Source: Synechococcus sp. HK01-R
GTDB taxonomy: Bacteria; Cyanobacteriota; Cyanobacteriia; PCC-6307; Cyanobiaceae
Direction: 5' to 3'
NCBI RefSeq assembly: GCF_014217855.1
Contig: NZ_CP059059.1
Coordinates: 1,302,001 to 1,366,000 of the forward strand
Length of the DNA: 64,000 nt
The notes under the pieces are model-generated. The model did no database searches. It had not been told where the DNA came from and worked only from the letters and a program-made list of their open reading frames with translations. Below, in pieces: positions 35,211 through 64,000 of the stretch. Both the position numbers and the translations under genes were made by a program. Positions within the stretch are counted from its first letter, which is position 1. Every line of letters starts with the position of its first letter.

Positions 35211-35270
35211 TCCCTCTCCCGGTCGAACGCCACCCTAATCACCTTCGCGGGATTCCGCCTGTGACCAATG

Positions 35271-35378
35271 CTGCGGTTTACAGCCCTGCTGCGGTTTACA
35301 GCCCTGCTGCGGATTACAGCCCTGCTGCGGTTTACAGCCCTGCTGCGGATTACAGCCCTGCTGCGGTGTTCAGCCGAA
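35271..35378. repeat. 18-bp tandem repeat, six units, at the end of the COG0523 gene
   Basis: Units of CTGCGGTTTACAGCCCTG (or GGATTACAG) start at 35271, 35289, 35307, 35325, 35343 and 35361; the last is diverged. On the minus strand, in the frame of the metallochaperone gene, the units read QQGCKP or QQGCNP. The last unit contains the gene's TGA stop in place of the TGT cysteine codon. Confidence 0.95.
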
Positions 35379-38618: not shown

Positions 38619-38784
38619 GTCGCGGCCTGTTTGAGAGGGTGGTGAGACATTGGTGTTGATCGGAGTGAGCGGTCGTAGCAGCGCTTGGCAGCGCCTGGGC
38701 TACCATCTGAGGGAGACCAACCTGCTTGGTTCGATCCAGAGCACGCATTGAGCGTAGACTGTCCAAAGCTGATTTGGCTAGCAG

Positions 38785-40695
38785 TTGCTCCTCGTCCCTC
38801 TCCGCCGCGTCTCTTCCGGTGAGCAGGTCTCAGGGTCAGGACTGGCCCGTCAGTCCGATGCCATGGCCGCCTACGCCGAAGCTCGTGGCTGGGATCTCCA
38901 CCCCGAGACCTACTCCGACGAAGGCGTCTCCGGCTTCAGCGGCGCCAACCTGGATGGCGACCTTGGCAGGTTCCTCGCCGACCTGAAGCGCGGCCACTTC
39001 GGCACGCAGCCAGTCGCCCTCGGTGTGGAAGACATCGACCGCCTCAGCCGTCAGTTCACCCTGGCGTTCCTGCCGGTCCTGATCGACCAGCTGATCAATG
39101 CTGGCGTCACCATCTCGGTGGTCAGCAAGGGCCGTGACTTCAGCAGGGAATCAATCAAGGCCAACGGCTTCGAGCTTCAGGAGCTGCTCCTCTATCTCCA
39201 GCAGGCCCATGAATTCAGCGAGAAGCTCAGCAGTCGCATCACCGATCACCGCGGGCGGATCCGTGCTTCCATCCGCGACGGCAAGCCCGCCAACCCCGGC
39301 ACCGCCCCCAGCTGGATCTCCCTGGTCAATGGTCAATGGGCGCTGAACGGTTACGCCGGCGTCATCCGCGAAGTGATCGCGATGTCCCAAGCCGGTGATG
39401 GTGCCCCGATTATCGCCAAAACGATGAACGCTCGAGGCGTCATCAATCCCGGCACCGCCAAGAAACGGCGCACCAACCCCGATGCAGAGCCCCAGCCCTG
39501 GGCAGCCAATCACGTCCTACAGGTGCTCAAGCAACCGGCAATTCACGGCGCACGGCTGGTCGCCAAACCCGGCCACAACTCTCGGCTCCGCAACTGGAAA
39601 GAGGAGTGCGCGCGACTCAAGCGGCAAGGCAAGGCTGAATCAGAGCTGCCCCCTCGGCCTCAGCGCGAGTTCGAGTCAGAGCAACCGAATTACTATCCGG
39701 CGCTGCTCAGCGAACCCGAGCATCGACTTCTGCTGCAGCAGATCTCCGATCGCGCCAACCCTGGTCATTCACGCGGCGGTGCCTGTCGCTGGATTGGCCA
39801 GGAGCTGACCACTTGCAGCGAATGCGGTTCAGCCCTCAAGCACTTCCACAGCCGTGGCAGGAAAGGTGAGATCTACAACTACCTGCGCTGCGCCGGGAAG
39901 GAGCGGGGGATCTGCTCGGCGCCGCTGCAGAGGTTTGACCCGCTGCAGGCGCATGTTCTGACCCGCCTCTCGGTCGGCGTGCTCCAGGAGCTGCTTGGCC
40001 TTGATGCCACCGGGGCTCAGCAGCGGGAGCTGGCTGCGGCAATCGACGCCATGGAATCGAGAAGGGGAGATCTGGACCGAGTGAGCCTGCGCCACGCCGC
40101 TGGTGAACGGGCCCTGGAGGAGGCCGACGACCCCTCGGAACTCAAGGTGTTGGTCAAGCGGCAGAGCGCCTTGGAGATGCAGCTGGAAGCCGCCAAGCAA
40201 CAGCTGGCCGATGCCGAGATCCAGGTGGAGCTGCTCAGCCGCAGGCCGCCAGCGGCGGAGGCAGCCGCTGAGATTCAGGAACATGTTTCCAAGCTGTTCA
40301 AAACATTCGACAAGGGTGAAGACACCTTCGAGCAACGCAAGTCGATCAATCAGCAGTTCAAGCGGATCGGCCTGAAGATTCAGGTTGACACCGCCGGAGG
40401 CCGGGTCGGCATGGCTATTGGTGATGGCGAATTGGACTGGCAGCCGCTGGCCCCTGCTGCTCGCCGGTATGCGCTCAACTCCGGCATGGTGGATCCCATC
40501 GCCGCCAAGGACACTGCCACTGGGCTGCAGGTGGCCGTGGCCGGTGGTCTGGAGTCCGGCGCCCCAGGGCCAGCAGCCGATGGCAGCAAGCCGGGTGTGG
40601 TGACAGTGATCACCAGCGAGGACGCCACCGAGGAGGCTGAGGTGCTGGAGCTGCTGCGCGAGCAGGGCTTGGAGCCGGTGGAGCAGGGTAGTTGA
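38785..40695 (+). CDS. Large serine recombinase (integrase)
   Basis: A 636-residue integrase with all modules of the large serine class: an N-terminal catalytic domain with the nucleophile in LRRVSSGEQ (Ser about residue 10), EGVSGFSGAN and GVEDIDRLSRQF; a recombinase domain including GYAGVIREVIAMSQAG; a zinc ribbon TCSECGSALKHFHSRGRKG ending in RCAGKERGICSAP; and a coiled-coil from about residue 410 on. A stop codon just before the TTG 38785 start fixes the 5' limit. Such enzymes integrate phages and elements at attachment sites near their gene, so the left end of the element probably lies within 38,620-38,785. Confidence 0.9.
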   Translation: MLLVPLRRVSSGEQVSGSGLARQSDAMAAYAEARGWDLHPETYSDEGVSGFSGANLDGDLGRFLADLKRGHFGTQPVALGVEDIDRLSRQFTLAFLPVLIDQLINAGVTISVVSKGRDFSRESIKANGFELQELLLYLQQAHEFSEKLSSRITDHRGRIRASIRDGKPANPGTAPSWISLVNGQWALNGYAGVIREVIAMSQAGDGAPIIAKTMNARGVINPGTAKKRRTNPDAEPQPWAANHVLQVLKQPAIHGARLVAKPGHNSRLRNWKEECARLKRQGKAESELPPRPQREFESEQPNYYPALLSEPEHRLLLQQISDRANPGHSRGGACRWIGQELTTCSECGSALKHFHSRGRKGEIYNYLRCAGKERGICSAPLQRFDPLQAHVLTRLSVGVLQELLGLDATGAQQRELAAAIDAMESRRGDLDRVSLRHAAGERALEEADDPSELKVLVKRQSALEMQLEAAKQQLADAEIQVELLSRRPPAAEAAAEIQEHVSKLFKTFDKGEDTFEQRKSINQQFKRIGLKIQVDTAGGRVGMAIGDGELDWQPLAPAARRYALNSGMVDPIAAKDTATGLQVAVAGGLESGAPGPAADGSKPGVVTVITSEDATEEAEVLELLREQGLEPVEQGS

Positions 40696-42114: not shown

Positions 42115-43011
42115 CTAGCCGGCGCTGGGCCCAGTGGCCTGCAGTTCCTCAAACGCCTTCAGGATCTCGCTGGCCGCCATGGTCAGGAAGGGGTGAGGCT
42201 CTCGATCAAGCACCTTGACGGGTGCAGGCCATGGCTCAGGCGTTGCAGGTAGCTCAACGGATTGCGGCGGCGCAGGCTGAATGCAGGTCTCTGGCGCTGA
42301 GCCGGCTGCACGCTCACGCTGACGCCGTGCCAGGAGTCGCGTGTAGGCGACATGCTCCGCCAACTCCGGTGGTGGGTGCTGCTGAGCCCCCGGCAGTGCG
42401 TTCAACGCTGCTCGCGCAATGACCGCCCTTGCCCGCGGGAAACCAGGGACATGGATCGGCAGCCCCGCAACATGCGGCGGCAGTGTGCTGATCGCACGCC
42501 GTGCGTCCTCCTCGGCCTCGCTTGCATCCAGCGACCACCCATCAAGCACAACCGGCTGGCGATCCACCGGCAATGCGGAGTTTCTGCTGGTGTTCAGCCT
42601 GGCTGTCCACTTCTGCGCTGCAATCGCTTCGGCTTTGTCGGCACTGGTCTTGCACCAGGGATAGAAGCAGTTGGGAACCACCGCCCAGTAGATCGCATTG
42701 CTGCGCTGCACCCAGGAGATCTCCAGCTGTAGCCACTGCCGCACTTCCCCGTCGCGTTTCACAAATGCACTGCCGGGCAGCACCTCGGGGAACACCGGCC
42801 CAGAGTTCCGCTTCCGCTTTGGGACGCTCGGCCAATCAGCCGCCGCCATTGCCACAGCTTCCGGCGCTCTCCGCCGTTCGATCTCGCGTTGTTCACACAG
42901 CGCTGCACGCTCAGCAGGGCTCACCCGTGGCTTCGGTCTTGATCTGCGATGGGCCGCGGCATCCCGTGCCTGCTGGTTCTTCTTTGCCGCCGAGAACAAT
43001 GCCCTGGTCAT
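42115..43011 (-). CDS. Element protein of unknown function, coupled to the helicase (298 aa)
   Basis: ATG 43011 overlaps the helicase stop as ATGA, strong evidence of coupling; the longer frame to 43110 is antisense-style padding. The N-terminal 60 residues are very basic (TRALFSAAKKNQQARDAAAH, RPKPRVSPAERAALCEQREIERRR), which suits nucleic-acid binding. The middle WLQLEISWVQRSNAIYWAVV, then CFYPWCKTSADKAEAIAAQK, is conserved-looking, and the C-terminus is Pro/Glu-rich. It probably partners with the helicase in element replication; that is inferred only from the gene order. Confidence 0.68.
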   Translation of the reverse strand: MTRALFSAAKKNQQARDAAAHRRSRPKPRVSPAERAALCEQREIERRRAPEAVAMAAADWPSVPKRKRNSGPVFPEVLPGSAFVKRDGEVRQWLQLEISWVQRSNAIYWAVVPNCFYPWCKTSADKAEAIAAQKWTARLNTSRNSALPVDRQPVVLDGWSLDASEAEEDARRAISTLPPHVAGLPIHVPGFPRARAVIARAALNALPGAQQHPPPELAEHVAYTRLLARRQRERAAGSAPETCIQPAPPQSVELPATPEPWPAPVKVLDREPHPFLTMAASEILKAFEELQATGPSAG

Positions 43012-45215
43012 TGCGCTGCACCTCCGGCGGCAACCACCCAGCTGCGACCTCTTGTTGCCACGCCCTGCTTCTCCAGCTCCATCGAGGCCCGTGTTCGACG
43101 CTTCTGCCAAGTCGGGCTTGAGATCGAACGCTTGGTTCTCCGGCGCAACTCAGCCTTTGCCGCCATGAAGCTGACCACTTTCATCCCGTCCTTATCCGGT
43201 GTGGCGGCATCCAGCAGATCAAGCACAACCTGTTTCACCTCCTCTTCCCTGGACACAACTGGCAGGACTGGCTGGCCAACGCCTTCCCAGTTCACCAGCT
43301 CATAGTTGCCAAGCACCTGCCGGCTCAGTCGGACAAACTCCATCGGCTTGCTGCCTGGATCCCAGATCTGGCAGTACAGATTCATTGGGATGCAGCCACC
43401 ATCGGATGATCGCCTGGCGGCACCACGCATTGCGGCCTGAATGAAATCGCAAACCATCTGCGAGCGGCGCAGTTCCACCAGATCCCAGGGCAGTACTTTC
43501 ACGCCTTCATTGCTTTCCCCTGCTTCGCTCCAGCTGTGCATCTGCAACCCAAGCGCTGGCTGCTGAATCAGACCAAGCAAAAGCACATTCTCAAACAGCA
43601 CATAGGCATTGGTCGCCTTATGCCGGCCCCAGGTGTCGATGGCCACTCGATGCCATGGCTGCAGCTCATCTCGATCCACGCAGATCAGATCAGCTGGGAT
43701 GCCCGCACGGATCAACCATTTCCGAAGCCATGTGGCATGGTTCAGCTCAACGCCACCACGAAACCCTGGCAGGAAGGTGAACACTAACGCTCGTTCGCTG
43801 GTGGTGCGGTAAATGCGCAAGATCTCATCAACGATTGCCTTGCCCAGTCGCCTGCGTTTCACGGAATCAGTCATCGCTTCGCTGCCACAAGGCCCAGCCG
43901 CCATGTGGACTCGCAGTGCTGCCATATCCTTGAGCTTGTGCGATGGCACCTTGACCAGATCCATCAACCGACTTCGGCTGTAGCGGTTGGATGCGCTGGA
44001 CAACAAATCAGCAGACCAGTTGGCATCCAGCGTCACAACGCTTTTAATCTCCTCCGGCCAGCACGGCACAGACTTACACACAACGGTTGATTCTTCGCCT
44101 CGCTTATGAAGCGCAACCTGCAAGTCAATAACTGAGCCGATCTCCGCCAGCATGCTCAGTGTTGAGGAAATTGCAAAATGGCTTTTCCTCAACTTGTTTG
44201 CCAGCACTTTTGTTGAGCCCGCCAACCGCTCGTCCATTGCGGGGACTTTGCACAAGCGCACGCTATGGGCCGGGTCGTTCTGTAGCTCGTCAGCCACGGC
44301 GACCAAGTTCTCCTCTAGCTCCACCAGGAACCCGCCCAGCCACTTGTTTTTGTCCATGACACGCTTGATGGCTGCCGTTGGCTGGTGGCAAAGCGTGTAA
44401 GCCGTATGGCGTATCGCATTCAGATCGGTGACATAGCACTCCGTGACATGCAGTGTTTCATCCTTGATCACCAACGCCCTTTTGCCGTGCTCGCCGATCT
44501 GCATGAATGGCTTGGCACCAACTGCAAACGGGATTCTTCGCGCCTCCTTGGCCCTTGCCTGCAGCTGCTGAGCGCACATCAGCAGGATTGGATACTTCGG
44601 ACACTCATCACGCTCGATTGGCTGGATCTTCCGGTCTTCCAGTGTGTGGAATACGCCAAGCCATTCGCTGGCTTTCAGTCCTGCGCGATTCAGTGAACCT
44701 GACAGCGAGCGATGCACACTCTCCAGTTCATCTGTTGAATCAACTGCAAACAGAACACCTGGATAGCGGTCAACCCCCAAGCCACCTTCTTGAAACAGAA
44801 TTGCCGATGCGATCAGGAAACCCTTGGCGGACTCTGACTTGCCAAAGCCGCACGGCACATCGAGCACAGGCGCATCAACCCAGCGCAGTGCATCTGCGAT
44901 TGGACCGCCCTTGAGTTCGTCACGGAAGGCCGCCAGCGCTTCATCGCTTGGTCGCAAGAACTGAATGGCCAGCTGGTAGGCGCACAATTTCAACGCGATC
45001 AGCTGAACCGGCGTGTATCGGAGCGGGCCCTGCCCTGAATAGCTGGCCATGGCCGCCACCGTTGCCAAAAAGCTCAGCCGGGTCAGCTCCTCCAGCGTTG
45101 CGATCCCTGGATGCACTTCTGCCACTCGCCGAGCAGCGCCACGGATCCGCCCATGGGTGTCCGTCAGCCGGTCGATCTCGGATTCCAGCCCTGGGGCTGC
45201 GTTGCCCAATGCCAA
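43008..45215 (-). CDS. Putative SF2-type helicase/ATPase of the element (735 aa)
   Basis: Motifs in order are a Walker A-like DVPCGFGKSESAKG at about residues 119-132, a DEAD-box equivalent VIKDETLHV near 252, and a motif VI-like FIQAAMRGAARRS near 600. The C-terminal 90 residues carry a winged-helix-like basic segment (RRRTKRSISSPTWQKRRTRA). These suggest a superfamily 2 helicase or DNA translocase for replication or transfer; the sequence is otherwise divergent and I do not recognise its family. Start is TTG 45215, with GAGG a suitable distance upstream. The palindromic region directly upstream and the coupled downstream gene support a replication role. Confidence 0.68.
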   Translation of the reverse strand: MALGNAAPGLESEIDRLTDTHGRIRGAARRVAEVHPGIATLEELTRLSFLATVAAMASYSGQGPLRYTPVQLIALKLCAYQLAIQFLRPSDEALAAFRDELKGGPIADALRWVDAPVLDVPCGFGKSESAKGFLIASAILFQEGGLGVDRYPGVLFAVDSTDELESVHRSLSGSLNRAGLKASEWLGVFHTLEDRKIQPIERDECPKYPILLMCAQQLQARAKEARRIPFAVGAKPFMQIGEHGKRALVIKDETLHVTECYVTDLNAIRHTAYTLCHQPTAAIKRVMDKNKWLGGFLVELEENLVAVADELQNDPAHSVRLCKVPAMDERLAGSTKVLANKLRKSHFAISSTLSMLAEIGSVIDLQVALHKRGEESTVVCKSVPCWPEEIKSVVTLDANWSADLLSSASNRYSRSRLMDLVKVPSHKLKDMAALRVHMAAGPCGSEAMTDSVKRRRLGKAIVDEILRIYRTTSERALVFTFLPGFRGGVELNHATWLRKWLIRAGIPADLICVDRDELQPWHRVAIDTWGRHKATNAYVLFENVLLLGLIQQPALGLQMHSWSEAGESNEGVKVLPWDLVELRRSQMVCDFIQAAMRGAARRSSDGGCIPMNLYCQIWDPGSKPMEFVRLSRQVLGNYELVNWEGVGQPVLPVVSREEEVKQVVLDLLDAATPDKDGMKVVSFMAAKAELRRRTKRSISSPTWQKRRTRASMELEKQGVATRGRSWVVAAGGAAQ

Positions 45216-47117: not shown

Positions 47118-47411
47118 TCAGCCCTGCTCCTTGGCCTTTGCTGCTGCTCTTAGTTGTCGCTTTCGTTCAGCGAACACTGCTTTTCCCGCTGGGCTTTTTC
47201 TCCAGCACGGGTTACACAGCAGGTTCAATTCTGGGCTGCCTCGATCTACTTGTTTCAGCAGTTGAATCACCCGACCGCACGCCAGACAGGGTCGGGTCTG
47301 TGGCGCACCATTGGCCGCCAACCGTTCGCGGTAGCGCCTGGTGCGTTCGGCTCCTGATTGCGGCATCCCTTCCGATGTGACGCTGGCCGCCATTCTGGGG
47401 GCCTTCATCAC
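47118..47411 (-). CDS. Small zinc-finger protein (97 aa)
   Basis: Two CxxC pairs (CLACGRVIQLLKQVDRG, then LLCNPCWRKSPAGKA) form a probable zinc ribbon. The N-terminus (AERTRRYRERLAANG) is basic, and the last 20 residues are Lys/Arg-rich, so nucleic-acid binding is likely. A later start at the ATG before PQSGAERTRRY is possible. It overlaps the resolvase stop by four bases, so the two are co-translated. Confidence 0.62.
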   Translation of the reverse strand: MMKAPRMAASVTSEGMPQSGAERTRRYRERLAANGAPQTRPCLACGRVIQLLKQVDRGSPELNLLCNPCWRKSPAGKAVFAERKRQLRAAAKAKEQG

Positions 47412-48043
47412 TGGGGGCTCCGCTCAGCTGGCATCTGCTGGGGGCTCCGCGCGGTGACGCTCGGGCCGCAGGCTGCTGGGGGCTCCTGCTGGGGACTCCG
47501 ACGCTGCAGGAACCGGGCCACCGCACTGGGGCTGGCGTCCACGCTGGCGGCGATGGTGCGCAGGCTCTGTCCCTCTGCTGCCAGGCGCCGCACCAGCTGG
47601 GCCTTCTGGCCGGTGATTGATGGGCGGCGGCCACCAGTGCGGCCCTCTGTTCTGGCGCGTGCCAGGCCGTCCATGGTGCGCTCCCGGATCATGTCTCGCT
47701 CCAGCTCAGCCACGGCGGCCAGCAGGGTGAACGTGAACCGGCCAGCGGGGCTGCTGGTGTCGATCTGCTGGTCGAGTGCCACCAGATCAACGCCGCGCCC
47801 CTGCATGGCCTGGGCCAGCTCCAGCAGCTCGCGGGTGCTGCGTGCCAGGCGGTCGAGCCTCACCACCACCAGGGCATCGCCTGGCCTGAGGTAGTCGAGG
47901 CAGGCGGCCAGCTGTGGCCGGTGCTTGATGCGTGAGCTGATCGTCTCGGTAAACAGGCGTGAGCAGCCTTCAGCCCGTAGGCGTAGGGCCTGGGCCTCGG
48001 CGTTCTGATCGGTGGTCGAGACGCGGGCGTAGCCAACTCGTTC
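47408..48043 (-). CDS. Serine resolvase/invertase
   Basis: A small serine recombinase of the resolvase/Hin class. The catalytic motif YARVSTTDQN is at residues 6-15, followed by SRIKHRPQLAACLDYLRPGDALVVVRLDRLARSTREL and AELERDMIRERTMDGLARAR. The helix-turn-helix is QSLRTIAASVDASPSAVARFL. The last 30 residues repeat RSPQQ. ATG 48043 is preferred to the upstream start. Besides the large integrase it is a second site-specific recombinase of the element, so dimer resolution or inversion of a segment is likely. Confidence 0.9.
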   Translation of the reverse strand, partial: ERVGYARVSTTDQNAEAQALRLRAEGCSRLFTETISSRIKHRPQLAACLDYLRPGDALVVVRLDRLARSTRELLELAQAMQGRGVDLVALDQQIDTSSPAGRFTFTLLAAVAELERDMIRERTMDGLARARTEGRTGGRRPSITGQKAQLVRRLAAEGQSLRTIAASVDASPSAVARFLQRRSPQQEPPAACGPSVTARSPQQMPAERSPQ

Positions 48044-48121
48044 CATGTGTCGATAAGGGGTAGCGGTGTGGTTTTGAAACGGTGCACAGAAACGGCGCAA
48101 CGGTTGGCCCGTGGGGCCGTG

Positions 48122-48691: not shown

Positions 48692-49273
48692 TCAGCGGCT
48701 GCAGAAGATATGCACACCGCCGGAGCTGCAGGGCTCGGCGTGGTAGCCATCACTGGCAAGCTCGCGCCAGGCACCGGCCCAGTCGATGTGGGACAGCGGC
48801 CAGGGCAGCTCATCCGGCAGGGCGCCGGTTCTGATGGCCTGTTTGTAGGCGTAGTCCTCCTCGCTGCTGTAGCAGTCGCAGTAGGTCTCCCAGAACTGGT
48901 CCTTGTCGAGGGTCTTTCCCTGGTTCTCGCAAGCCAAGCGGTAGGCCTCGTCTTCTTCGGGGCTGCCCAAGGAGCAGGCAACATGAGCCCATTCGATCAG
49001 ATCGCTCAGGGCGGGCCATTCGTTGCGGCTCAGGTAGCCGGGCAGGTTGGAGCTGTCGTGCATGGCCCACTCCTCAGCGCCAGGCTCGGGGCTGGTGGCC
49101 AGAATCCAGTCGATTGCGGCTTGGATGTCGCCCTCGTCCTGACACTGCTCCAGATCGACCCAGGCGCCATGCAGGCGGCCTGCGTTGTAGCTGGCCAGGC
49201 AGGCGATGTAGACGCCCGTGTAAGGCATTTCGGGGAAGATGCAGGCGGGCTTTTTGGTTGTGGTTGCGGTCAC
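48692..49273 (-). CDS. ardA: Antirestriction protein ArdA
   Basis: The DNA-mimic ArdA blocks type I restriction enzymes. Its N-terminal signature YTGVYIACLASYNAGRLHGAW is intact, followed by DLEQCQDEGDIQAAIDWILATSPEPGAEEWAMHD, and the C-terminal half is acidic (SSEEDYAYKQAIRT). I start at GTG 49273, which gives 193 residues, a normal size; the longer frame to 49396 lacks family support. It is the fifth gene of a minus-strand run of small genes and implies that the element enters new hosts by a route where restriction matters, such as phage infection or conjugation. Confidence 0.93.
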   Translation of the reverse strand: MTATTTKKPACIFPEMPYTGVYIACLASYNAGRLHGAWVDLEQCQDEGDIQAAIDWILATSPEPGAEEWAMHDSSNLPGYLSRNEWPALSDLIEWAHVACSLGSPEEDEAYRLACENQGKTLDKDQFWETYCDCYSSEEDYAYKQAIRTGALPDELPWPLSHIDWAGAWRELASDGYHAEPCSSGGVHIFCSR

Positions 49274-49344
49274 GGGTTGTTTTCGGTTGTGGTTGGAGCT
49301 GGGAGAACCCAGCAGAGAAGCCCCTAAGGGCCTCAGTGCTGGGT

Positions 49345-49593
49345 TCAGTCCGCGTAAGGCGGCAAGTCGTAGTGATCGGCCATCAGGGCAGGCCAAGCCG
49401 GCTGGGAGCCGTCACCAGGGCGCACGGCGATCAGATGCCCGGGCCACCACCACCGGAGGCAGCGGGCCAGCCGGTGGGCTTCGTGGTTGGTCAGCGGGAA
49501 TCGCGCGTTGTGTTTGGCCAGCTGCCACGGGAGCCAGTGCTCGCCGTCATCAGCGGGGCAGGCCATCCAGACCGTGTAGGTGGTGGCGGTCAT
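49345..49593 (-). CDS. Small element protein, Trp-rich (82 aa)
   Basis: A soluble protein with several tryptophans (HWLPWQLAKHNARF, LARCLRWWWPGHLIAV). No family is recognised. Its ATG at 49593 overlaps the previous gene's stop by one base, and ArdA follows 71 bp downstream. Confidence 0.58.
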   Translation of the reverse strand: MTATTYTVWMACPADDGEHWLPWQLAKHNARFPLTNHEAHRLARCLRWWWPGHLIAVRPGDGSQPAWPALMADHYDLPPYAD

Positions 49594-50977: not shown

Positions 50978-51738
50978 CGGTTGGTGTCCGGCGGTGCCGG
51001 GGCGTGGTGGTGGTGGCGGTGGGCCAGAGCTGGAGCGGCAGGGCTGTTGCCTCGCTGCCGGTTGCCGTGTCTGGTTGGCGTTCTGTGGCTGGGGCTGGGC
51101 CGCTGCTGCAGGGCCTGGCTCCATCGCCTACCGGCCACCATAGTCTCCGGGCGTCACAGATGGGAAGGCTCCTGGCCAGAAAAGTGGCACACTGCCAGCA
51201 AAACGCCTGCACCGCAGCGGTTCCGCCCTGGCGCTCAGCCTGCCCCGGCTGGGCCAGCCTGCTCGGCATGGCGTCAGGCGTTACGACTGGCGGGGCTGGC
51301 CCGGCATCGGCGCCCAGCACCAGGACCAGCAGCTCCCGGCCCGGCTGACCCGGCCCGGCTGGCGCACCACGGCCACCAGCCCAGCTGCCACCACCGCCAG
51401 ACCGGCCACCACGGCCAGCGCTGCCGGCGCCACCGCCAGCCAGGGCAGGGGGGCACCCCCACCCCCGCCCCCGCCCCTTGAGGCGACGAGGGGCTGGCGG
51501 GCCCGGCCCGCCCACAGCGGAAGCGCAGGGGGGCACGGGGGGGCTGCTGCGCTTTGCGCTGGATGGATGCCCCCGCAGTCGTGAATAATTTTTCTGCCGT
51601 TGACGAAGGAACTCCCCCCGGGTCGGCATCAGGAATCGCCCCAGGGATTACCCCAGCTGGTGCTTAGCTAATGCCCCAGCGAATGCTGAGGGTGATGTTG
51701 TGTCAGTGGCGGGGGGATTGGCGGGGTGTTGTCCAGGA
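50978..51738. other. Intergenic 760 bp with GC-rich low-complexity sequence
   Basis: No reliable gene. The overlapping minus-strand ORF at 50877-51629 is Gly/Pro/Arg low-complexity and is rejected. The segment 51456-51477 holds four cytosine runs of 4-5 bases separated by single bases, so the minus strand can form a G-quadruplex. The promoter of the ArdA run is presumably here. Confidence 0.6.
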
Positions 51739-51936
51739 TCAGCGGTAGGACTTGAGCAGGGCATTGATGCGTTGCCGAGAAACGCCTAGGGCCGAGGCCA
51801 GTTGTACTGCGACACCACGGGGCCAGGATGTGCCGAGAGCCCTGACGACACGATCAACGGCTGCGGATGTATCTGTGTCGGGATTGAATGTTGCTATGAG
51901 CCCGGACAGTTCAGCTGGGGTGGCGGTGGATGGCAT
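51739..51936 (-). CDS. Small helix-turn-helix protein (65 aa)
   Basis: ATG 51936 gives a compact protein with an HTH VAVQLASALGVSRQRINALL at the C-terminus. The upstream extension to 52110 is not convincing. A Cro-type regulator near the iteron region is plausible. It follows the 100-residue gene on the same strand. Confidence 0.62.
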   Translation of the reverse strand: MPSTATPAELSGLIATFNPDTDTSAAVDRVVRALGTSWPRGVAVQLASALGVSRQRINALLKSYR

Positions 51937-51977
51937 TGGTGGGTTTGGGTGTCTGTTCAGTTGTTCGGGCTGTTGGA

Positions 51978-52280
51978 TCAGACAGCGGACCACATGGGTT
52001 GTGGGTGTGGCAGGTGGTCTTCCTTTGGGCGTTGTGTATCTGCAGAGCAGGTTGCATTGACTGGCCAGCGTTGTCCGTCTCTGGCTGGTTGCCAGGGGTG
52101 TTGCTGCCATAGGGCCAGCGCTGCTGACTGGTTCAGGATGCTGTCATCAGCTGCGGCACCGATGATTTGGTTGCGGTCGTCAAGGATGAATAGGGCTTTG
52201 CGTTGGTGTACGGGGAGCCGATTTCTGTGGATGGGTTTGTCCAGCTGGGTTATCGCTGGGCAGGGGTGCTGGAGCTGCAT
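51978..52280 (-). CDS. Element protein of unknown function (100 aa)
   Basis: I take ATG 52280 (MQLQHPCPAITQ); the longer frame to 52520 overlaps the iteron region and looks noncoding. The middle has a probable sheet-helix unit (RKALFILDDRNQIIGAAADDSI) and a Trp-rich run ALALWQQHPWQPARDGQRW. Not recognised. It is divergent from the zinc-finger gene. Confidence 0.5.
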   Translation of the reverse strand: MQLQHPCPAITQLDKPIHRNRLPVHQRKALFILDDRNQIIGAAADDSILNQSAALALWQQHPWQPARDGQRWPVNATCSADTQRPKEDHLPHPQPMWSAV

Positions 52281-52475
52281 TGGGGCTGAGTAGGTCTCTT
52301 CACTGTGACCACTGCACTTGATCGGGACTGATGCGCTCAAGAAAGAGCCTATGCACCTCGCCAATTTTCCATCCTTCCAACGCAAGTTTTGGCCTGTAGT
52401 TGAGGACAATTCCGGCCTATGCGTGGGGCGGTTGAGGTGAGTTTTAGCCGGACAGATGGGGCGTTTGAGCCCTAG

Positions 52476-52749
52476 TGTCCGCGTAAGAAATGTCCGCGTA
52501 AAAGATGGGGACGACAGCACGGTGTGAGCAGTGCGGGAAGGGGATCGAGGCCGCTAGGCGGACGCGTAGGTTTTGTTCTGACGCTTGTCGGAAGAAGGCG
52601 AAGAGGGCTTACGCGGACACGGCTGGATCACCGGCAGCCGACTGTCCGCCTAAAAAATGTCCGCCTAAGGACTGTCCGCCTAAGGCTTGCGCGGACAAAT
52701 GTCCGCCTAAGGCTTGCGCGGACACGGCTGGATCTGATGTGTTGTCCGC
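52476..52749. repeat. Iteron-like TGTCCGC repeat array
   Basis: TGTCCGCGTAA occurs at 52476-52486 and 52491-52501, just before the ATG of the zinc-finger gene. Inside the gene TGTCCGCCTAA occurs at 52643, 52658, 52673 and 52700, with the reverse form at 52609-52619 and GCGGACA at 52691-52697 and 52718-52724. The copies form inverted pairs. This could be an origin, partition or operator region. Confidence 0.75.
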
Positions 52750-54037
52750 GGAAGCAGGTGAGGTTGCGGTGTCCGGCTTAGCGGTTACGGCTGAAGCCGA
52801 GCCAGCCCCAGCCCCAGCTGAGCCCGTGACGGATGCCCCGGCCCAGGTGAAGGTGGTGATCACGCCAAGCGATGAGCCTGACCAAAAAGGTGGAGCCCAG
52901 ATCTCCACCCCTGGCTTGCTGTGTGTGTCCGAGCCTGCTGAGCCAGCTGCTGGCGACACCCCAGCACCAGTCACCGATCAAAAGGGTCCCCGCCAGATGG
53001 GGACCATTGATCAGAAGGGTGTCAGTCAGATTGACGCCCTTACCGAACCGCCAACCCCAGCCCCGACTGCTGTCCTGTCGATCACCCCGGACGAGCAGGC
53101 GCTTGCTGAGGAGCACGGGTTGCAGTTGGGCAAGAACGCACAGGGAAAGGACTGGTGGGTTGCTCCTGCGGGTGCAAGTCAGGCGGCCAGGGCATTGGCA
53201 CGGGAGTTGAATTTCAACCGGGATGCCACCCCCCAGCGGGGGGACGCAGCAGAGCGCGGATCAAAAATCGAGTCCACGGGTGCAAGCGGCAAAGTGGCTG
53301 TCCGCGCCTGGGATGGGGCGGTATTGCGAGCGGAGGCGGTTAGCGGGGAGTTGGTGTTACCGGCAGCGGAAGCGCTAGCCAGCCGTCCCCTGGATCTGGA
53401 GCTGGAGGGCGATCTGCCTTGCAGGGTGGATGGTCTGGATGGCGAATGGCTGTTGCATGGCACCTGCGTGCGGAGCGAAGACCACTTGGCGATGGTCTTG
53501 TCGGCCGATCGGCAGCGCGCTGCGGTGGTGCTGCTGGAGGCCGTGAAGTTGAGCAAGACGCTGTCCAGCCACGGGTATTTGATGCGGACGCTGGAGCAGG
53601 AGAAAGCCGGATTTGAGCCGGATGTGCGGCTGGTGACGACCACGGAGGGTGGAGTGACCAGAACGGTGACGGCACCGCTGCAGGAGCCTGCTGCTGCCCC
53701 TGTGACCACGGCCCCTGCCGTGGAGTTGAAGGAACTGCCGGCAGCGATCCTGAAGAAGCTGCCGGACGATGTCGTGCATCACGGCAATCGCCCCTGTCGT
53801 GTTGTCGGCGATCCACACGAATGGCTGTGGGTGTGCTCCCGGCCTGCTACCAGCAATGCGTTGCTGAAGCGCAAGGCGGGTCGGAGGTGGCTGGTGGTGT
53901 CCTGCGTGGAGGGCGCTGTTCAGCTGATCCAACCCCGGGTGGAGGCCGGCGATGCGGATGCCGCGGCCAATGGCTTAGCAGCTGCGTTTATGGGCGAAGT
54001 GCTCAACCTGGAGAATCCGCTGGAGGCGGTGGCCTGA
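52505..54037 (+). CDS. Zinc-finger protein with CPPK repeats and C-terminal domain (510 aa)
   Basis: Residues 7-30 form a short zinc finger (CEQCGKGIEAARRTRRFCSD, with Cys at 7, 10, 24 and 28), followed by a basic helix. Next come the repeats CPPKKCPPKDCPPKACADKCPPK (about residues 46-73), encoded by the iteron-like DNA array. A long acidic Ala/Pro/Glu-rich linker with QKG-containing repeats (DQKGGAQIS, DQKGPRQMG, DQKGVSQID) leads to two similar C-terminal modules, LPCRVDGLDGEWLLHGTCVR and NRPCRVVGDPHEWLWVCSRP. I infer a DNA-binding regulator or replication initiator of the element. I do not recognise the family. Confidence 0.72.
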   Translation: MGTTARCEQCGKGIEAARRTRRFCSDACRKKAKRAYADTAGSPAADCPPKKCPPKDCPPKACADKCPPKACADTAGSDVLSAEAGEVAVSGLAVTAEAEPAPAPAEPVTDAPAQVKVVITPSDEPDQKGGAQISTPGLLCVSEPAEPAAGDTPAPVTDQKGPRQMGTIDQKGVSQIDALTEPPTPAPTAVLSITPDEQALAEEHGLQLGKNAQGKDWWVAPAGASQAARALARELNFNRDATPQRGDAAERGSKIESTGASGKVAVRAWDGAVLRAEAVSGELVLPAAEALASRPLDLELEGDLPCRVDGLDGEWLLHGTCVRSEDHLAMVLSADRQRAAVVLLEAVKLSKTLSSHGYLMRTLEQEKAGFEPDVRLVTTTEGGVTRTVTAPLQEPAAAPVTTAPAVELKELPAAILKKLPDDVVHHGNRPCRVVGDPHEWLWVCSRPATSNALLKRKAGRRWLVVSCVEGAVQLIQPRVEAGDADAAANGLAAAFMGEVLNLENPLEAVA

Positions 54038-54130
54038 ATCCAACGCTGGTTGCGCTCTACAGCCACCGCCCTGGCAGTGGTGCAGTCGGTGGACGCCTAC
54101 TCCGAGTGCGCGGCACCACGCCTGAAAAGG

Positions 54131-54403
54131 TCAACCGCCCAGGCGTGGCATCCCCTGCAGCAACAGCTGGCCGAGCATCGCTCGCTGTCCCTCGCTGAGC
54201 TGCAGGAGCTTGCGACACATCTCCTGCAGGGCTGTGGTGTCTGCTGTGGAGTCGATCACCCTGCGCAGCCGTTCAATCTCAAATTGATGCGCTGTGTCCT
54301 GCTCCACGATCAAAGTCGCTGCACCCACCGTGGCGCTGTTCAGCATCCACTGCAACTGCGTAGCGAGAACAACACAAACTGCCTTGCACAGTTCTTGTAT
54401 CAT
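54131..54403 (-). CDS. Small coiled-coil-like element protein (90 aa)
   Basis: A leucine-rich, helical protein (FEIERLRRVIDSTADTTALQEMCRKLLQLSEGQR) with heptad-like spacing. The overlapping plus-strand ORF (54050-54433) is Cys/His-rich and less coding-like, so I favour the minus strand. Not recognised. Confidence 0.5.
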   Translation of the reverse strand: MIQELCKAVCVVLATQLQWMLNSATVGAATLIVEQDTAHQFEIERLRRVIDSTADTTALQEMCRKLLQLSEGQRAMLGQLLLQGMPRLGG

Positions 54404-54429
54404 TTGTGCATCAATCAGCGGGGTCAGCC

Positions 54430-54594
54430 ATGACTACTGCTACAGCGCAAGGCAACAAGAACCAAAAAATCCGCAACGAACTGGCTGGCACAGGTGCTGA
54501 TCCCTTTGCCATTGCTGCCCAGGCTTTGGCTCGCAATGAGGAGCTGCTGAACCACATCCAGCGGCTGGAAGCGATGCTGCGGCTAAAGCCCTAG
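54430..54594 (+). CDS. Small helical element protein (54 aa)
   Basis: From ATG 54430 (MTTATAQGNKNQKIRNEL). The C-terminal half is helical and charged (LARNEELLNHIQRLEAMLRL), resembling a short coiled coil. It begins 27 bp from the divergent 90-residue gene. No function known. Confidence 0.5.
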   Translation: MTTATAQGNKNQKIRNELAGTGADPFAIAAQALARNEELLNHIQRLEAMLRLKP

Positions 54595-54644
54595 GTCGCC
54601 ACCAGCAGCAGGTTTTGCTGCGGCAGTTGGCCGCCACGAACCCG

Positions 54645-55571
54645 TCAAGCCGTCAACGCCGGCAGCTCAAGGGCTTCCAGGTCGGCTGGGTCGATGTCTT
54701 GGCCCTGGAGGTGCTTGCGGATGTCGGCGATGCCGCGTTGTCGTAGTTGGCCGGCTCGAGTGCGGCTGTCGCCGTGGTCTGCGGCGATTTCAGCGAGGGT
54801 GCGGCCCTGGAAGTAGGTGCCGAGGATGTATTTGCGATCTCGCTCATTTGTGTGCTTGATGAGGCTCCGAGCGAATTCAGCCCGAGCTGAGGCGAGTTCA
54901 GCCTCGTGGAGTTCTTCATTGGTGGCGCCAGAGGCGGCGATCAGCTCGTGGAGCAGGCTGGCGTCTTCTTGGCTGTTGCTTCCATTTTTTCGGCAGTGGG
55001 CATCGAGGCTGCTGACCAGTTTCATGGTGCCGGCAACGATGGTCTCCTGGATCTGGGCGGCAGTGAGTTTTGACTTCTCGACCAGATAAGCCAGAGGTGG
55101 GTCGATACCTTTCAGCGCCCGGTATTCGGAGATGAGTTTATTTAGTCGTTTCCACTGATCATTTCGGTTTGCAGGAACATGAATCAGGGGCAGGTCGTTT
55201 TCATAGGACCTTCCTACGGCCTGCAAGATCCACCAGTAGGCGTAGGTGGAGAACGCAAAGCCGCGTTCAAAGTCAAACTTTTCGGCAGCTCTTATGAGGC
55301 CGATCGTTCCCGCCTGGATGAGGTCCTGGAGTTGATCCTGGTCATTGCTCAATCCGCGTTTGTATTTATTGGCGATTTTTATGACGAGGCGCAGGTTGCC
55401 TTCTACTAGGCGATTCCTGGCTTTCAGGCCACGCCTGGCAATAGCTGGTGGGCATGGGGCTGGGTGTTCAAGCCAGGCCTTTACGAGGCGCCCTGCATGG
55501 ATCTGCGCTTCGCGTGACATGACCGGGCGTGCGCTGCAGAAGCTGGTCAGTGTTTGATCAAGCCCGTGCAT
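54645..55571 (-). CDS. Sigma-70 family factor of the element (308 aa)
   Basis: Region 2 is complete: [20 protein letters not shown], then [37 protein letters not shown], the core-binding and -10 recognition helices. Region 3 is around residues 130-190 ([19 protein letters not shown]), and region 4 is present as [41 protein letters not shown] with its HTH. It resembles cyanobacterial group 2 sigma factors but is shorter and divergent. It probably redirects host RNA polymerase to element promoters, as late regulator of the virion genes on the other strand. A start at ATG 55520 is possible. Confidence 0.87.
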
Positions 55572-63300: not shown

Positions 63301-64000
63301 GAAGCTGCAGAACCGGCAGGCATTTGAGGCCGACTACAAGGCGAATGAGGCCCAGGTGCAGCAGTACCTGGACGAAATGCCTGGCTCCAACTCAGGCAAG
63401 GAGCTGACAGAGGAGGAGTTCCTGGCGAAGTACGGCGCGGATGAAACGCAGCATCCACAGCTGAAGCACAAGGGAAGTGCAACACCGAAGCAACTGAAGG
63501 AGCTTGAGGCTCACCGCTGGGCGGAGCAGTACCTGGCTTGGTACGAACGTCAGCCGTTGTCGCCTGCTGATCGGGATGCCGTGAAGGCTGAGATCCTTGG
63601 CCAGGCGATTGCCAATGGTGAGGTCAGGCCCAGCGCCACACCAATCCCACCATCACCGGATCAGCCGTCTGTTCGTCTGACGGAGGGCTTGCGTGATCTG
63701 GAGCAGCAGCTGCGAGAGCAGGGAAACATTGCGCCTGGCACACCAGCTGCTCAGTTGTTGGTGGATGAGGTGCGACTGGCAGAGACGTATCAACAGCGTG
63801 ATGCAGTCATCGCCCAGGAAACGGCTCGTGCTCAACGCGAAGCGATGGGATACACCGACCTGACCTTTGAGGAGAAGAAAGCTCAGGCGGGGATTGCTGA
63901 GGGGTGGGAGCTGCCACCTGCTCGTCAGCCAGGTGAGCTGACGACACAGGACGCCACCACGTTGGATCAACGTGCGGCATTGGCCAAGCAACAGCGGGAA
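60329..64000 (+). CDS. Giant polyvalent-type virion protein, 5' part (runs off the window)
   Basis: The frame is open from ATG 60329 to the end of the window, 1224 codons without a stop, so the protein is larger than shown. The N-terminus (MPVTYQVDKNGKVVRVG) is polar, then follows a hydrophobic region (LATNAAVAFIPGLRVGTTAF), Ala/Pro-rich linkers, and at about residues 598-690 a ParB/DdrB-like domain (DIAVDPARFQFKGN, then YVVNGHNRVAKARELGIP). Later there are charged helical repeats. Long ejected proteins that string together ParB-like and other domains are called polyvalent proteins in phages. It takes the place of T7 gp16. Confidence 0.65.
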   Translation, partial: MPVTYQVDKNGKVVRVGSLSSAGNQAAAKPPSRQAAQPQQPAIGQWAVLNGKRVRWSGNGWKWQSPESYAKLQRENRFDTQRNPFNWIENNLKHLFNASNQLDKGTRLVGTVGFLPIYEEPNGRVSSSTPAQRQVAHATTAQPATNAALAAVNLGQRLLSGQPLKPTDPESSSIGRKLVQWNRSAAVGMGAKLPEQLTPDQKSILTDLPSSLATNAAVAFIPGLRVGTTAFSGLVSKAPYLSKPLQNVLAGGLRWGTNAGLNEGVSGILDDSSQGGAGNLLQAAGVPVPDAFVVDPRRDDRISGGLRSVVPGVLLGEAIGAPFGALAKGVEFAPNAYRNLREWRARSEVQTARQQTVNAGLQEPVEGTGEHRFTAAATPSPVVPDGAAAPAAAPAKTPRQAVEDVIGPRPGAEPQAAAATPDAAPTAAAEPAAIPSQEMTVGGAVMPGELPDGSAADPWYDPSLPEIDLPAIALNRLDDDGLKAIQQGEGPVLQRIETYLQTQQLPELDPGLATARTAAPTESLADPVVGYGEQWQTLPNDRLLQLAHPEVSPDLYERVQGLTGREWEQFSRQDILDGMETLRQDGLTVMPTRLQPNQNLLGIEDIAVDPARFQFKGNTDEQGRQRGNSLEGVDRWNPDAEGEIQVWQDPMDGRTYVVNGHNRVAKARELGIPTLPAKELLATTAEQARTQGAISNISSGGGTVFDAAKFLRDSGVTDPARLSQMGIPLDSGFGTQGLALSKLPDSLFQSAINGELPLGRALALGGSELDPADMIRVAGLGAQKEISERGFAELVEMASSAPKVADSAQGGIPGLDEWLKGSSVLEKAELAAKIRAELNSEKNLMSKVGKNKTAQKLAEKGGTEVNQGQVLTAADTARSILAEFDRTKYLTGTPISELLNQGAMEIANGAKAAVIAKRILQQLEKAALDSGMAGADVASQAAAAAAPGRGAQASPATGADPARLEARWAQLSPEQRAAKAAEAKALLLTPKKLQNRQAFEADYKANEAQVQQYLDEMPGSNSGKELTEEEFLAKYGADETQHPQLKHKGSATPKQLKELEAHRWAEQYLAWYERQPLSPADRDAVKAEILGQAIANGEVRPSATPIPPSPDQPSVRLTEGLRDLEQQLREQGNIAPGTPAAQLLVDEVRLAETYQQRDAVIAQETARAQREAMGYTDLTFEEKKAQAGIAEGWELPPARQPGELTTQDATTLDQRAALAKQQRE

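Follow-up and report, generated by a model that had tools for sequence, protein, structure and literature searches.

The window, by which we mean the whole 64,000-nucleotide stretch of DNA analysed here (positions 1302001-1366000 of a one-contig 2.48-Mb genome), holds the left part of an integrated phage-derived element that runs beyond the window end. Both ends of the element lie in a conserved host gene, within its 5' part; we take this gene to encode a carboxypeptidase. The left remnant of this gene encodes the N-terminal sequence SAWQRLGYHLRETNLLGSIQSTH, the right end supplies a different version, TAWERLGIHLKETNCLESIQRTLYWDQ, and matching 12-mers are found at the two ends (38734-38745 and 75328-75339); the span of ~38.75-75.34 kb is deduced from these two versions and the 12-mers. 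The element brings a replacement 5' end for the host gene, the left remnant of which sits beside a large serine recombinase gene. In 9 of 11 same-genus loci the gene located here at ~36 kb and the conserved gene (starting at 75238 here) are found together within 4.5 kb, the two exceptions (L078 and L080) showing the conserved gene alone, whereas ~38.7 kb separates the two genes in the present genome. The main features, on the window scale, are:

~38745 to ~75339, no strand: integrated phage-derived element, ~36.6 kb, extending beyond the window end at 64000
38785-40695: large serine recombinase at the left end (Pfam Resolvase and Recombinase)
43008-45215, minus strand: 735-aa orphan in which a possible nucleotide-binding motif, PCGFGKS, was noticed by eye; no family found
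47408-48100: small serine recombinase
48692-49396: ArdA
52505-54037, plus strand: 510-aa orphan gene with an N-terminal Cys4 zinc finger (~aa 7-30), an array-coded linker, a low-complexity stretch and a C-terminal part
54645-55571: sigma factor
55958 to ~68.6 kb: four virion-type genes following the sigma factor

The cargo also includes an HsdR_N-like protein and, towards the right end, a PD-(D/E)XK nuclease, a RecD-like AAA helicase and a J-domain protein. Three of the four virion-type genes are similar to an IMG/VR contig (L016) in which the remaining genes have a T7-like look, portal, capsid and tail-tube genes being identified there by reading; the fourth has a relative in an Autographiviridae genome (29% identity over 98%). 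Twenty element proteins were searched in Pfam (19 of the 33 script-picked genes plus one, leaving aside 14 that include a 1617-aa protein), and no terminase, portal or capsid protein was recognised among them. The T7-like portal of L016 had no match in the genome either, an empty answer that shows little. We read the element, with its T7-like virion-type genes, as a prophage remnant or a satellite. The 735-aa orphan matched nothing but itself in IMG/VR or in 119 genomes, and the same holds for a 196-aa neighbour in the 119 genomes.

The finger of the 510-aa protein matches PHROG 6975, a family of unknown function (1.1e-5), and more weakly PHROG 2308 (0.0075) and PHROG 8643, a phage polymerase/primase family (0.0094); its match to the Pfam family zf-FCS_1 (0.049) lies under the family cut-off. 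NCBIfam gave no match. Structure prediction from the single sequence was poor (mean pLDDT of 42) and confident only at aa ~191-240, and fold searches with this poor model gave no match at E <= 0.001 or Z >= 5. In the C-terminal part a 26-aa stretch recurs at 46% identity (E 4e-5 from a pairwise comparison), and the protein carries further low-complexity and repeated stretches besides the array-coded linker. No sigma-70-like promoter was matched in 51600-54700; since 0.5 matches were expected there by chance, this says little.

A 12-bp word repeated over the gene start and the linker codons

The leader and the first codons of the zinc-finger gene are occupied by copies of the 12-bp word TGTCCGC(G/C)TAAG. 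Counting as full copies those with at most one mismatch, ten are found within 279 bp (52476-52754), seven direct and three inverted. The original prediction of a dense array of this word at 52476-52749 is thus borne out, its count of at least eight direct and four inverted copies being slightly too high. The full, partial and weak copies are as follows:

52443-52454, minus strand: weak inverted copy TGTCCGGCTAAA, upstream, two mismatches; may pair with copy 1 in RNA
52476-52487, plus strand: copy 1, TGTCCGCGTAAG, non-coding, ending 17 bases 5' of the ATG
52491-52502, plus strand: copy 2, TGTCCGCGTAAA, covering the ribosome-site position and predicted to pair with the AUG
52555-52563, minus strand: partial inverted copy of 9 bp within the zinc-finger codons
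52608-52619, minus strand: inverted copy TGTCCGCGTAAG in the gene, read as AYAD
52643-52654, plus strand: direct copy TGTCCGCCTAAA, read as CPPK
52658-52669, plus strand: direct copy TGTCCGCCTAAG, read as CPPK
52673-52684, plus strand: direct copy TGTCCGCCTAAG, read as CPPK; left arm of a 25-bp imperfect palindrome
52686-52697, minus strand: inverted copy TGTCCGCGCAAG, read as ACAD
52700-52711, plus strand: direct copy TGTCCGCCTAAG, read as CPPK; left arm of a second 25-bp palindrome
52713-52724, minus strand: inverted copy TGTCCGCGCAAG, read as ACAD
52743-52754, plus strand: direct copy TGTCCGCGGAAG, read as LSAEA in the frame where the word would give a TAA stop; its sole mismatch abolishes the stop
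52770-52781, plus strand: weak direct copy TGTCCGGCTTAG, two mismatches, sharing the frame of 52743, with one mismatch inside the potential TAA

Such a concentration is not a product of chance. In 52440-52790 the largest family of 11-mers has 10 members (at most one mismatch, both strands), the most reached by any of 100 dinucleotide shuffles being 3. Among 353 fixed-grid tiles laid over the surrounding 124 kb the top family has 6 members and belongs to an unrelated 18-bp tandem repeat; the grid happens to split the array in two. That tandem repeat, TGCTGCGG(T/A)TTACAGCCC, is present in about six copies at 35269-35376, between genes or at a gene end. Genome-wide the array word occurs 17 times at the same tolerance, ten times in the array and seven times across the rest of the 2.48 Mb, and a reversed control pattern occurs 29 times. 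The copies outside the array are therefore at background level and form no second cluster, so the word does not define a regulon.

The copies differ in the way they are read. Copies 1 and 2 lie directly 5' of the ATG at 52505, over the leader of the gene; they are non-coding and stand outside the CPPK frame, the word there reading TCC GCG TAA. Both had been placed over the position of the ribosome site, and this is true of copy 2, whereas copy 1 stops short of it. In the coding part, Cys-Pro-Pro-Lys is spelled by the four direct copies from 52643 to 52700, all in one frame; the three inverted copies give A-Y/C-A-D and the copy at 52743 LSAEA. In the frame that contains TAA, this triplet is kept in both copies outside the open reading frame and altered in both copies inside it; the three inverted copies within the open reading frame are all of the G type, a C-type word creating a TAG there. 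As an open frame must avoid stops in any case, this avoidance shows that the word stands in several frames and is not by itself a sign of selection. Inside the gene the word is found in three reading contexts, so that selection on the protein alone would be insufficient to account for it.

Comparison of the word with the letters between its copies points in the same direction. Over the six direct copies up to 52700, one of 11 core columns is variable as opposed to four of four spacer columns, a split with P = 0.0037 if the five variable columns fell at random. The codons TGT, CCG and CCT are invariant over the four CPPK copies, the spacer codon varies, and two of the three are minority codons here (TGT 27% and CCT 17% of their synonyms); such invariance would have a probability of ~1.5e-4 if codons were independent draws. 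Both probabilities are too small, because segmental duplicates make the copies partly dependent. A contrast is available within the same protein, where the motif DQKGxxQ occurs three times (52880, 52976 and 53009) and its synonymous codons vary (GAC/GAT, CAA/CAG, AAA/AAG). The non-coding, inverted and two-frame copies, and the core kept against the spacer, suggest that the word is maintained beyond protein coding, a conclusion that the segmental duplicates weaken. The prediction that the same sequence is at once a protein repeat and a probable DNA-level array is supported at the sequence level by these copies and by the invariant Cys and Pro codons beside a varying spacer codon.

Segmental duplication did produce some of the copies: a 24-bp pair is 96% identical (52606 and 52711), the 25-bp palindrome is present twice in identical form, and 31 bp are common, at 84%, to the upstream pair of copies and the first coding pair. 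The CPPK/ACAD linker might be a low-complexity repeat of recent origin that spread through template switching and local duplication, two copies landing upstream of the ATG in the process, with nothing binding to it. The duplicates argue for such growth, as do the other low-complexity and repeated stretches of the protein; the orphan state of the gene and the absence of the two-word array pattern from the 196 other genomes examined are what a young repeat would lead one to expect. However, duplication of a 15-bp unit should have preserved the spacers along with the cores, and here only the cores are kept; the word moreover stands in either orientation and occupies three reading contexts. We regard repeat growth without function as rather unlikely, although it ranks next after the operator-type reading developed below.

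Candidate roles in RNA structure, replication and operator-type recognition

If the array does have a function, it might be exerted in the mRNA. In this model, the weak inverted copy at 52443 would pair with copy 1 and copy 2 with the start codon, copy 1 could alternatively pair with the inverted copies in the coding part, and competing hairpins would set the level of translation. The predicted folds are consistent with it over several ranges. For the leader (52443-52530) the predicted energy is -32.7 kcal/mol (z -2.6, with 3/200 shuffles at least as stable), the 30-nt hairpin at the start codon has by itself a z of -3.6 (1/200), 52466-52625, with copy 1 paired to the copy at 52608, a z of -3.8 (0/200), and 52440-52760 a z of -5.4 (0/100). 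The 52608 copy and one flanking base indeed form a 13-bp perfect complement of copy 1. The modelled ensemble of 52440-52790 gives a probability of 0.95-1.0 for pairing between copy 2 and the AUG, and copy 1 is predicted to pair with 52713 (~0.4-0.5), 52443 (~0.1-0.4) or 52686 (<0.1). Nevertheless, DNA arrays with inverted repeats fold well as RNA in any case, so that low energies are expected under a DNA model too. Furthermore, the two 25-bp palindromes have a C-C mismatch between their adjacent arms (word position 8), the segment 52470-52530 taken alone does not fold better than its shuffles (z +0.5, 129/200 as good), and Rfam gave no match at E <= 1. RNA-level control is the strongest functional rival that we see, and on balance an unlikely one.

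The layout of the gene also brings phage lambda to mind. Lambda O consists of an N-terminal binding domain, a linker and a C-terminal part, in this order, and iterons of the lambda type are direct repeats; more generally, an iteron origin has mostly direct copies, spaced at about whole helical turns. The 510-aa product shows a comparable order, with a putative N-terminal nucleic-acid-binding domain, the array-coded linker and a C-terminal part, and a RecD-like AAA helicase is encoded by the element, as is a J-domain protein. Iterons in the linker codons of an initiator, bound by the product of that gene, could then start replication of the excised element. The lambda ori in gene O, like related lambdoid origins, has its repeated binding words within the coding sequence of the gene for their binder, where they are also read as protein (PMC7466680), which is the likeness to the present case. 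Lambda O is a known precedent for iterons in coding sequence. The array differs from lambda ori in that copies also lie over the gene start, three of ten are inverted, and the direct copies follow a 15-bp period (~1.4 helical turns, hence not helically phased) with additional steps of 27 and 43 bp. It also lacks an A+T-rich tract, the GC content of 100-bp segments being 51-70% over 51900-53599 and 57-70% over 52450-52849, and the product is a zinc-finger protein for which, in the libraries tried, no similarity to a known initiator was found apart from the weak finger match to PHROG 8643. A cluster of near-identical words is present, whereas mostly direct copies at whole helical turns and an adjacent A+T-rich stretch are not. 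The proposal that the array consists of the iterons of a plasmid or phage origin did not hold up against these features, and we consider an origin of the lambda O kind quite improbable.

We tentatively rank first an operator-type DNA recognition array for the zinc-finger gene, which the gene's own product perhaps binds and whose coding copies would have been reused as a linker. The array would sit over the promoter and leader and extend through the first ~280 bases of the gene. The binder would be a protein of the element, most likely the zinc-finger product; it would recognise the 12-bp word whichever way this points, and the filling of several sites would control transcription of the gene itself. 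The in-gene copies would be retained as a linker rich in Cys, Pro and Lys, the choice of codons following the DNA word. Binding by a protein, the zinc-finger product as the binder and an effect on transcription are the three steps that we infer, and autoregulation by this product would be plausible. Phage and plasmid regulators with autoregulated multi-operator promoters have sites clustered over their own promoter and start. Sites are clustered at the gene start here too, but eight of the ten lie inside the gene and the binder is putative.

We count in favour of operator-type recognition the ten copies in 279 bp, the shuffle test, the non-coding copies, the contrast between core and spacer, the invariant CPPK codons, the match of the N-terminal Cys4 finger to PHROG 6975 and, as a lead, an array in podovirus ctuNt529 described below. 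Against it we count the segmental duplicates, the single cluster of the word in the genome, and the finding of an array, built from a different word, at one of 14 loci with related fingers. If a protein does bind the array, the locus would be a compact case, away from lambda O, of a protein repeat written in the letters of a DNA recognition array, and a role would be suggested for the small Cys4 finger with which some phage proteins start; if nothing binds it, the locus serves as a useful caution where repeats are met in orphan genes.

Relatives of the finger and a possible second array

The 510-aa gene found only its own genome among 60 relatives (30 of them from the same genus) and among 388 genomes of the class, two overlapping sets, at most three first-look candidates being scored per listed genome in the latter; no relative was found in IMG/VR, in phages or in plasmids (the last at E <= 1). 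With only the first 74 aa as the query, 36 of the 60 genomes, its own included, had matches at E <= 1, the best other value being 0.0019; a regular expression for the finger matched none of seven of these loci that were scanned, and the ORF list of the best one (L031) shows no finger.

Searches for the array gave a similar picture. The strict word-pair pattern and the palindromic form were both absent from IMG/VR, and the five matches to a looser word-pair pattern there are near-identical stretches with a single word each at up to two mismatches. Two of 84,980 species genomes matched the array pattern (an Actinomycetes MAG with two full words and one partial word in tandem, and Celeribacter), which is near the ~0.5 expected by chance on our own arithmetic, and the finger expression found nothing there. 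A blastn search with the array region returned two plasmid and five phage records, all at E >= 1. The word cluster is also missing from L016, the relative of the virion-type genes, and from L017, a relative of the sigma factor, and L016 has no tandem repeat either; Nohivirus S31C1 (L027) was compared by its gene table alone.

Among phages, the same 74-aa query found 391 records at E <= 10 with a best value of 1e-3, and 337 of the records are from Mycobacterium phages. A similar finger starts gp1 of Gordonia phage Eyre, directly ahead of the terminase (E 1e-3), and the finger is one gene apart from a downstream terminase in ctuNt529 (1e-3) and, by a weak match, in Corynebacterium phage Poushou (0.9). 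These neighbourhoods bear on yet another explanation, namely that the array serves in DNA packaging or site-specific recombination and that either a zinc-finger protein resembling a small terminase or the small serine recombinase (47408-48100) recognises it. The word begins with TGTC, as resolvase half-sites do. On the other hand, further finger loci lie near integrase or excisionase genes or in WhiB-annotated genes, the Pfam search described above brought no terminase to light among the 20 element proteins, and the L016 portal had no match in the genome, which shows little. The res site of a serine resolvase has inverted 12-bp half-sites about a 4-bp centre and adjoins the recombinase gene, whereas the small recombinase gene is 4.4 kb away from the array, which contains no inverted pair with a 4-bp centre, the nearest ones being 1 bp apart. 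Of our readings, packaging or recombination is the least likely, and a very improbable one. The initial TGTC also led us to consider a transposon end, which was rejected, no transposase being found among the 20 element proteins searched in Pfam.

Fourteen loci with related fingers (10 of the 391 phage records and four IMG/VR loci) were scanned for arrays. One, that of podovirus ctuNt529 (MW202692.1), has an array, which was found by looking; the largest word families at the others have 5 and 4 members, both A-rich (L067 and L061), or 2-3. In ctuNt529, five head-to-tail TTTACGCTA words, 14-19 bp apart, lie ahead of a zinc-finger/RecA fusion gene; counted with the copy just inside this gene, the array occupies L069:29569-30285. 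In this 44.9-kb record the 11-bp word occurs eight times at no more than one mismatch, six of them within 0.72 kb at the array, as against 0.93 expected. Its finger is 53% identical to the one studied here over 30 aa (E 1e-3). The two arrays are alike in having head-to-tail words that run into the ribosome site, an inverted copy after the zinc finger and a position inside an annotated ORF. They differ in the word, TTTACGCTAAG as compared with TGTCCGCSTAAG here, although T-T-CGC-TAAG in ctuNt529 and T-T-CCGC-TAAG here look alike by eye. As one case in 14, it is a possible second array and a lead only.

The zinc-finger gene of this phage-derived element might represent a self-encoding regulatory or initiation site of an undescribed kind, in which the start region and the first ~90 codons form the binding array of the encoded protein, on both strands and in three reading contexts, with the linker written from the word, and ctuNt529 would then be a further case, sequenced independently; this we hold to be distinctly improbable, if less so than an origin of the lambda O kind. 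In ctuNt529 the last word runs into an AAGGAGG ribosome site and one inverted copy lies in the codons that follow the finger. The ribosome site serves a small unlisted ORF (ATG at 3811 of L056) that overlaps the start of the zinc-finger/RecA gene, and the record annotates an ORF over the array, in which the words are read as YAK repeats.
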